Assembly (NCBI GenBank): GCA_945291235.1
Contig: CALYQY010000104.1
Coordinates: forward strand, 1-7,003
Reading direction: 5' to 3'
DNA: 7,003 bases
Source: an uncultured Gilliamella sp.
GTDB taxonomy: Bacteria > Pseudomonadota > Gammaproteobacteria > Enterobacterales > Enterobacteriaceae
In this document: positions 811 to 1,728 of the stretch, piece after piece
Position numbering within the stretch: position 1 is the first letter of the stretch
How the letters are laid out: every line of letters begins with the position of its first letter
Program-made: the position numbers and the translations under genes
The notes under the pieces: model-generated
What the model was told of the DNA's origin: nothing
Database searches by the model: none
What the model saw: only the letters and a program-made list of their open reading frames with translations

Positions 811-1728
811 TTAATGGCTCCTAAAACCACTATCGGCAAGTGATTGAGGTTCTGGTATTGCAGGCGGGGGGACATCATCAGGAGGCGGTGGAGGTTCAAT
901 ACCTCCAGCGGATAATACCTCTTCAATCAGTGGAATTAATGTCGTCAATGTTTTTTGACTTCTAAAAATATCGCGACAAGCAATGCGCACTTCACGATCA
1001 GGGTCAGCTCTATTTTTAGCAGCAATTTCAAACGCTTTGGGTACCACTGTATCAAATTATATAATATCGGCAATATCATAAACAAACGAGAGCGGTTTTC
1101 CGCTATGCACAAAACCGATAGCTGGCGCATAACCAGCTGCCAAAACCGCTGCTTCGGTAATACCATAAAGACAAGAAGTAGCAGCACTGATACATTGATT
1201 GACCGTATCGCCTTTTTGCCAATCTTTGGGATCATATTTACGTCCATGCCACTTAACACGATACTTTTTGGCTAGTAATGCATAAGTTGCACGTACACGA
1301 GCGCCTTCAACACCTCGTAATTGTTCAATAGAACGTCGGCTAGGAGCCGGTTCGCCAAATCGCAGTTCAAACATTTTTTTGACAACTTTTAGACGAAGTT
1401 CATCATCCAAAGCTAATTTTGCTTGATAAAGTAATTTGTCCGAACGGGCTCCCCCAGGCTGACCTGTCGAATACATTCTGACGCCAGCCTCACCTACCCA
1501 GACTAACAGTGTCCCCACAGTTGCGGCTAATCTAACCGCTGCATGTGATACTCGTGTACCGGGCTCAAGCATGATACAAGCAATAGAACCAACGGGAATG
1601 TGGGTTCTAACGCCTGTTTTATCTATTAATACAAAAGCACCATCTAAAACATCAATTTGTCCATATTGTAGGAAGATCATTGATGTTCTATTTTTTAAAG
1701 GAATAGGATTCAGTGGAACATACACCAT
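811..1728 (-). pseudogene. cas1: Cas1 integrase gene interrupted by an in-frame TAA at codon 224
   Basis: The reading frame from ATG 1728 to the TAA at 811-813 spans 306 codons, the exact length of E. coli Cas1 (305 aa) plus stop, but codon 224 (1059-1057) is TAA. E. coli Cas1 has Lys there (DIADII-K-FDTVVPKAFE), so AAA to TAA, one base, explains it. There is no frameshift: FDTVVPKAFE and the rest follow in the same frame. Residues 1-223 keep the metal-site residues E141, H208, D218 and D221. The lost 81 residues carry the rest of the helical domain and the proline-rich tail. Cas1 is the catalytic subunit of the Cas1-Cas2 spacer integrase. The ATG has AGGA 8 nt upstream, overlapping the cas6e stop. 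No other damage is visible, so the mutation is recent, or is a base-calling error. The product would be a 223-residue fragment, probably not a working integrase. Confidence 0.93.

Follow-up and report, generated by a model that had tools for sequence, protein, structure and literature searches.

Analysis of a 7,003-nt window, as the whole stretch of DNA studied here is called, revealed a type I-E CRISPR-Cas locus in which cas8e, cse2, cas7e, cas5e, cas6e, cas1 and cas2e lie together on the minus strand, cas1 being present as a broken frame only. A premature stop at codon 224 divides this frame. The favoured interpretation, to which a probability of roughly 0.7 is assigned, is a one-base nonsense allele of very recent origin, by which Cas1 loses three predicted C-terminal helices and the tail and spacer acquisition stops, with Cascade, cas2, the leader and the array left intact. 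The observation is best read as genuine but unremarkable, a single nonsense allele of recent date that follows the usual course of pseudogenisation.

The stop appears as TTA at 1057-1059 of the plus strand, which is TAA at 1059-1057 of the minus strand and shares the frame of the ATG at 1728-1726 and of the natural stop at 813-811. It was thus located where the first-pass annotation, an earlier reading of the same DNA, had placed it. The further claim that the frame matches the length of E. coli Cas1 without insertion or deletion also holds, since it comprises 305 codons and the intact Cas1 of the nearest relative aligns ungapped to PDB 3nkd over residues 1-304. The catalytic residues E141, H208, D218 and D221 all precede the stop, as had been stated; the truncation itself stands, and the number of residues lost was corrected from 81 to 82 (K224 plus 81). 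Codon 224 encodes lysine in the three nearest relatives, G001 (locus L100), G025 (L101) and G005 (L102), and differs there by one base from the TAA of the window, so the stop is not a chance frame event.

The neighbouring elements proved to be intact, as previously claimed: (i) open frames were found for cas2 and all Cascade genes, each scoring above its NCBIfam cut-off; (ii) the leader closely resembles that of near relatives; (iii) the array is regular (Table 1). The cas2 gene may still be expressed, because an AGGAG motif precedes its ATG. The remnant frame beyond the stop fits the end of the Cas1e model with a score below the cut-off. A scan of positions 400-1800 gave two promoter-like sites, no excess over the 3.5 found in shuffled sequences, and three terminator-like sites versus 1.1; no conclusion was drawn from either. 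Two Rfam matches, both below the gathering scores, were taken as chance.

Table 1. Coordinates of the features identified in the window and of the cas8e-cas3 stretch in three related genomes
Feature	Position	Strand	Remark
CRISPR array	96..430	-	six repeats and five spacers, regular
Leader	431..514	-	95-96% identity to three near relatives
cas2e	515..808	-	intact; AGGAG nine bases 5' of ATG
cas1 frame	811..1728	-	305 codons, broken at codon 224
Remnant frame past the stop	811..1047	-	78 codons; GTG at codon 228 as a possible restart
Premature TAA, cas1 codon 224	1057..1059	-	lysine in relatives
Truncated Cas1 coding part	1060..1728	-	223 residues with E141, H208, D218, D221
cas6e	1739..2410	-	intact
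cas5e	2411..3154	-	intact
cas7e	3167..4231	-	intact
cse2	4237..4854	-	intact, separate from cas8e
cas8e	4880..6430	-	intact; TTG start common to L100, L101, L102
Promoter-like box	6699-6726	+	same distance from cas8e in 8/11 mini-CRISPR loci
AAG (6835-6837) with the guide-matched site	6835..6860	+	
First degenerate half-repeat	6905..6930	+	
Spacer-like guide	6931..6954	+	
Second degenerate half-repeat	6955..6977	+	hairpin
cas8e-cas3 stretch, G001	C37:332954-342674		
cas8e-cas3 stretch, G025	C1:374112-383492		
cas8e-cas3 stretch, G005	C1:1882992-1892747		

The lost part of Cas1 comprises, besides K224, three predicted helices and the tail. In an AlphaFold2 model of the database protein P0001 (built from 19 sequences; mean pLDDT 67.7, with residues 221-280 at 72-90 per block), the helix 213-224 ends at the stop, and the helices 228-238, 243-257 and 260-274 lie beyond it. 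Conserved residues occur within this part, namely R248 in 80 of 80 homologue rows and I291 in all 79 rows reaching it, while residue 287 of the lost tail varies among homologues, indicating that not every lost residue is critical. Compared with a functional Cas1e, the truncated product has all four catalytic residues and lacks the complete C-terminal helices and tail. Since the removed helices and tail include fully conserved residues, the truncation is best read as having cost Cas1 its integrase function. The PAM end of the prespacer is reported to be shielded by the C-terminal tail of the E. coli Cas1 (PMC10011333).

In the proposed mechanism, a single base change in the type I-E cas1 of a Gilliamella strain would have converted lysine codon 224 to TAA. 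The resulting 223-residue product, whose catalytic domain is short of three C-terminal helices and which has no proline-rich tail, would probably be unstable or inactive, and such a short Cas1 would be unable to integrate spacers together with Cas2. Provided that the strain has a cas3 as its relatives do, the stored spacers could continue to direct Cascade, and the array would stay frozen until the cas1 allele is lost or swapped by recombination. The earlier view of a locus that keeps its memory and has lost acquisition can therefore be retained in part: integrase loss is the best reading of the truncation, and a preserved memory fits the parts seen in the window, but interference also requires cas3, which would have to lie outside it. 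No cas3 was present among the frames of the window. A Cas3 core above the family cut-off was found in 17/17 relatives with a full I-E cas1 (20 of the 35 Gilliamella genomes overall), and in G001, G025 and G005 a distance of about 9-10 kb separates this core, encoded on the opposite strand, from cas8e.

The closest named cas1 relatives, among the matches listed, belong to Gilliamella, a genus of bee gut bacteria; the nearest genome compared, G001, has 55% of sampled words in common with the window. On the strength of the cas1 relatives, the window is assigned to Gilliamella or a very close neighbour of it. A cas1 DNA search of 35 Gilliamella genomes gave 18 matches, and the exclusion of G033, which has a fragment only, left 17 loci with a full I-E cas1. 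Lysine, and no stop, is present at codon 224 in all 17, and K224 is likewise found in 80/80 homologue loci, a set that overlaps the former, as several of the 80 are Gilliamella. Protein search further identified P0001, a Cas1 of 305 residues that agrees with the window at every one of the 223 residues; 3' of residue 223 it differs from the window frame only at the stop and at residue 262. Being of full length and identical over these 223 residues, it indicates that an intact near-twin exists.

Private codon changes were defined as those in which the window alone differs where L100, L101 and L102 agree, gapped codons being left out. The cas1 frame has two such changes, the stop and A262T, and no silent one; the corresponding counts are 1 for cas2, 2 for cas6e, 3 for cas5e, 4 for cas7e, 7 for cse2 and 14 for cas8e. 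The substitution A262T was considered as a sign of decay and rejected, because residue 262 is variable in homologues (K 26, A 23, G 15 and others 15 in the 79 rows reaching it) and threonine occurs in 1/17 Gilliamella loci. Without further decay in cas1, the event is probably very recent; the stop is either that or an error.

The second of these possibilities, in which the strain has an intact Cas1 and the TAA arose through faulty base calling or assembly or reflects a minority variant of a mixed sample, is unlikely. The full-length database Cas1 identical over 223 residues speaks for it, as does the lack of a second inactivating change in cas1, the missing decay fitting an error equally well. 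Two points stand against it: the change is a substitution, whereas errors at base runs commonly alter length, and all six further cas frames within 7 kb are uninterrupted.

Among 394 genomes from the order, 35 contain a Cas1 match at 1e-60 or better, and internal stops were detected in two of these (G039 and G384); in one more, G134, the Cas1 match is short and near a contig end. A broken cas1 is uncommon, not unheard of. The shortest Cas1 among the best 120 of 8000 scored has 266 residues, which does not imply a general absence of shorter ones. A second cas1-like stretch was observed in L069 (Cellvibrionaceae) at 7688-8587, on the other strand, matching in pieces and with a stop, next to an intact cas1.

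It is also conceivable, and decidedly improbable, that the cis cas1 is broken while another Cas1 of the same genome serves in trans, so that the array still grows. A second, different cas1 was found in 20/35 Gilliamella genomes, including 7 of the 17 with an I-E cas1, which agrees with this explanation; it is absent, however, from all three nearest relatives (G001, G025 and G005). In several genomes, moreover, the second cas1 adjoins a Cas3-like frame some 1,100 codons long, as is found in type I-F, and a type I-F integrase would be expected to serve other repeats. Least credible of all is a restart at the GTG at 1047-1045 with two pieces rebuilding an active Cas1: the 78-codon frame does begin 9 bases past the stop codon, and a loop is predicted where the protein is divided, between the helices 213-224 and 228-238, but no ribosome-binding sequence is evident by eye at the GTG, the conserved K224 is in neither piece, and the arrangement was seen in no relative examined.

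The spacers contribute little to the age of the nonsense allele. None of the five was found in the related loci compared, with up to 7 mismatches, and they therefore provide no dating of the stop; one of the five, sought in 35 Gilliamella genomes with up to 3 mismatches, was found in none. An IMG/VR seed-pattern search with all five gave one match, rejected as chance (24/32 over the full spacer, AAG not adjacent). The phage collection yielded one weak match (E 0.3), to a single phage under two records. In the plasmid collection, matches of 60-80% identity were obtained in 17 records, 4 of them covering at least 80% of the query, and these are read as other arrays with similar repeats. Genome G001 carries a second array with another repeat variant about 1 kb from the main one (L100 5167-5683).

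Among the papers listed, none was found by title or by the start of the abstract to treat a cas1 nonsense allele in Gilliamella; this does not imply that none is published. PMC12586679 belongs to the literature on Gilliamella and CRISPR. A search for literature on Cas1 with K224 found none. Cas1 truncation does not occur in PMC4574026 or in the passages searched of PMC6395717 and PMC12216489. If clean, a nonsense allele of cas1 occurring naturally in a bee symbiont would offer a ready null for testing whether acquisition in the gut matters. Taken alone, the cas1 stop is one further recent gene breakage, and a mini-CRISPR beside cas8e matters more.

This degenerate mini-CRISPR is located at 6905-6977 on the plus strand, upstream of cas8e and outside the array. 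It is built of two half-repeats around a spacer-like guide, and the second half-repeat folds as a hairpin with a z of -3.8. An AAG-flanked site starts 67 nt ahead of it. The guide of the window matches this site at positions 1-5, 7-11 and 13, both guide and site being A/T-rich. Both half-repeats were matched by patterns in the window and in 10 of the 17 Gilliamella relatives, giving 11 loci, which are related and not independent. Dropped from the set were L101, L104, L108, L112 and L115, which gave no pattern match, L107, of which 381 bases only were available, and L103, where the second half-repeat was matched and the first is visible, in a more degenerate form. The strict pattern of the first half-repeat was found in 2/80 homologue loci, both of them Gilliamella (L003 and L004); the pattern is Gilliamella-derived, and absence elsewhere is not implied.

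Guide and site covary across the 11 loci with both half-repeats. The best run was taken within 150 nt before the first half-repeat, positions 6, 12 and 18 being free. With their own guides the loci gave runs of 7-16 nt (mean 12.5), 13-16 in 7/11 and 10, 9, 8 and 7 in L100, L113, L105 and L109, respectively, compared with a mean of 4.0 for guides placed on the regions of other strains and 4.4 for shuffled guides, where the top mean of 500 sets was 6.1. Four cross-strain values reach 15-19, and these are supposed to come from near-identical pairs. The motif AAG, a type I-E PAM, lies directly 5' of the best site in 11/11 loci and played no part in choosing the sites.

In its organization the mini-CRISPR resembles the CreA/CreR guides, and by this analogy it is a candidate for a CreA/CreR-like RNA, here in a type I-E setting. 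Guides of this kind need Cascade and not Cas1. We hypothesise that such a guide, if expressed, could maintain selection on the effector genes once cas1 has been broken. For CreA of H. hubeiense, matching at positions 1-5 and 7-11 is the reported rule, according to a portion of PMC8501985 in which Gilliamella is not named, which does not settle the published status of the mini-CRISPR. CreR is described in part of PMC12737573 as a crRNA-like RNA through which Cascade represses its own cas promoter. In the window, the promoter-like box lies ahead of the guide-matched site and not at it; in L109 and L113 it aligns with a one-base gap. It is missing in L111, where a 15-nt guide match is kept, an argument against an essential role of the box. 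Next to the site, sequences resembling a promoter directed at cas8e match poorly, at 7-9 of 12 positions. No toxin RNA was identified at the mini-CRISPR.

The ectopic guide points to a regulatory or addiction RNA that acts through Cascade in the type I-E loci of Gilliamella; if true, this would explain how effector genes can outlast adaptation genes. A wider scenario, tentative and rather improbable, is a locus shifting to a Cascade-only role: a putative crRNA-like guide would tie Cascade to the repression of a cis-promoter, of its own cas operon or of a toxin RNA, selection would keep Cascade and cas6e, and cas1 would be free to break.

Fusion of cas8e and cse2 in one frame was observed in 4/17 Gilliamella loci (L100 10760-12955, L101 5493-7688, L106 and L116); in the window and in the remaining 13 loci they form two frames. 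Among known systems, the E. coli type I-E Cas1 (PDB 3nkd) is comparable through the ungapped 1-304 alignment of the intact relative and the catalytic residues kept in the window, whereas the window frame ends at codon 224. The mini-CRISPR shares with CreTA/CreR the degenerate repeat pair around a spacer analogue, and in the window positions 1-5 and 7-11 of its guide match a PAM-flanked cis site; it differs in the Gilliamella type I-E host. The Gilliamella genomes G001, G025 and G005 possess the same cas8e-to-cas2 gene set, the same leader and a cas1 with 91-98% DNA identity. In contrast to the window, all three have a full-length cas1 and other spacers, and G001 and G025 have the fused cas8e and cse2 frame.
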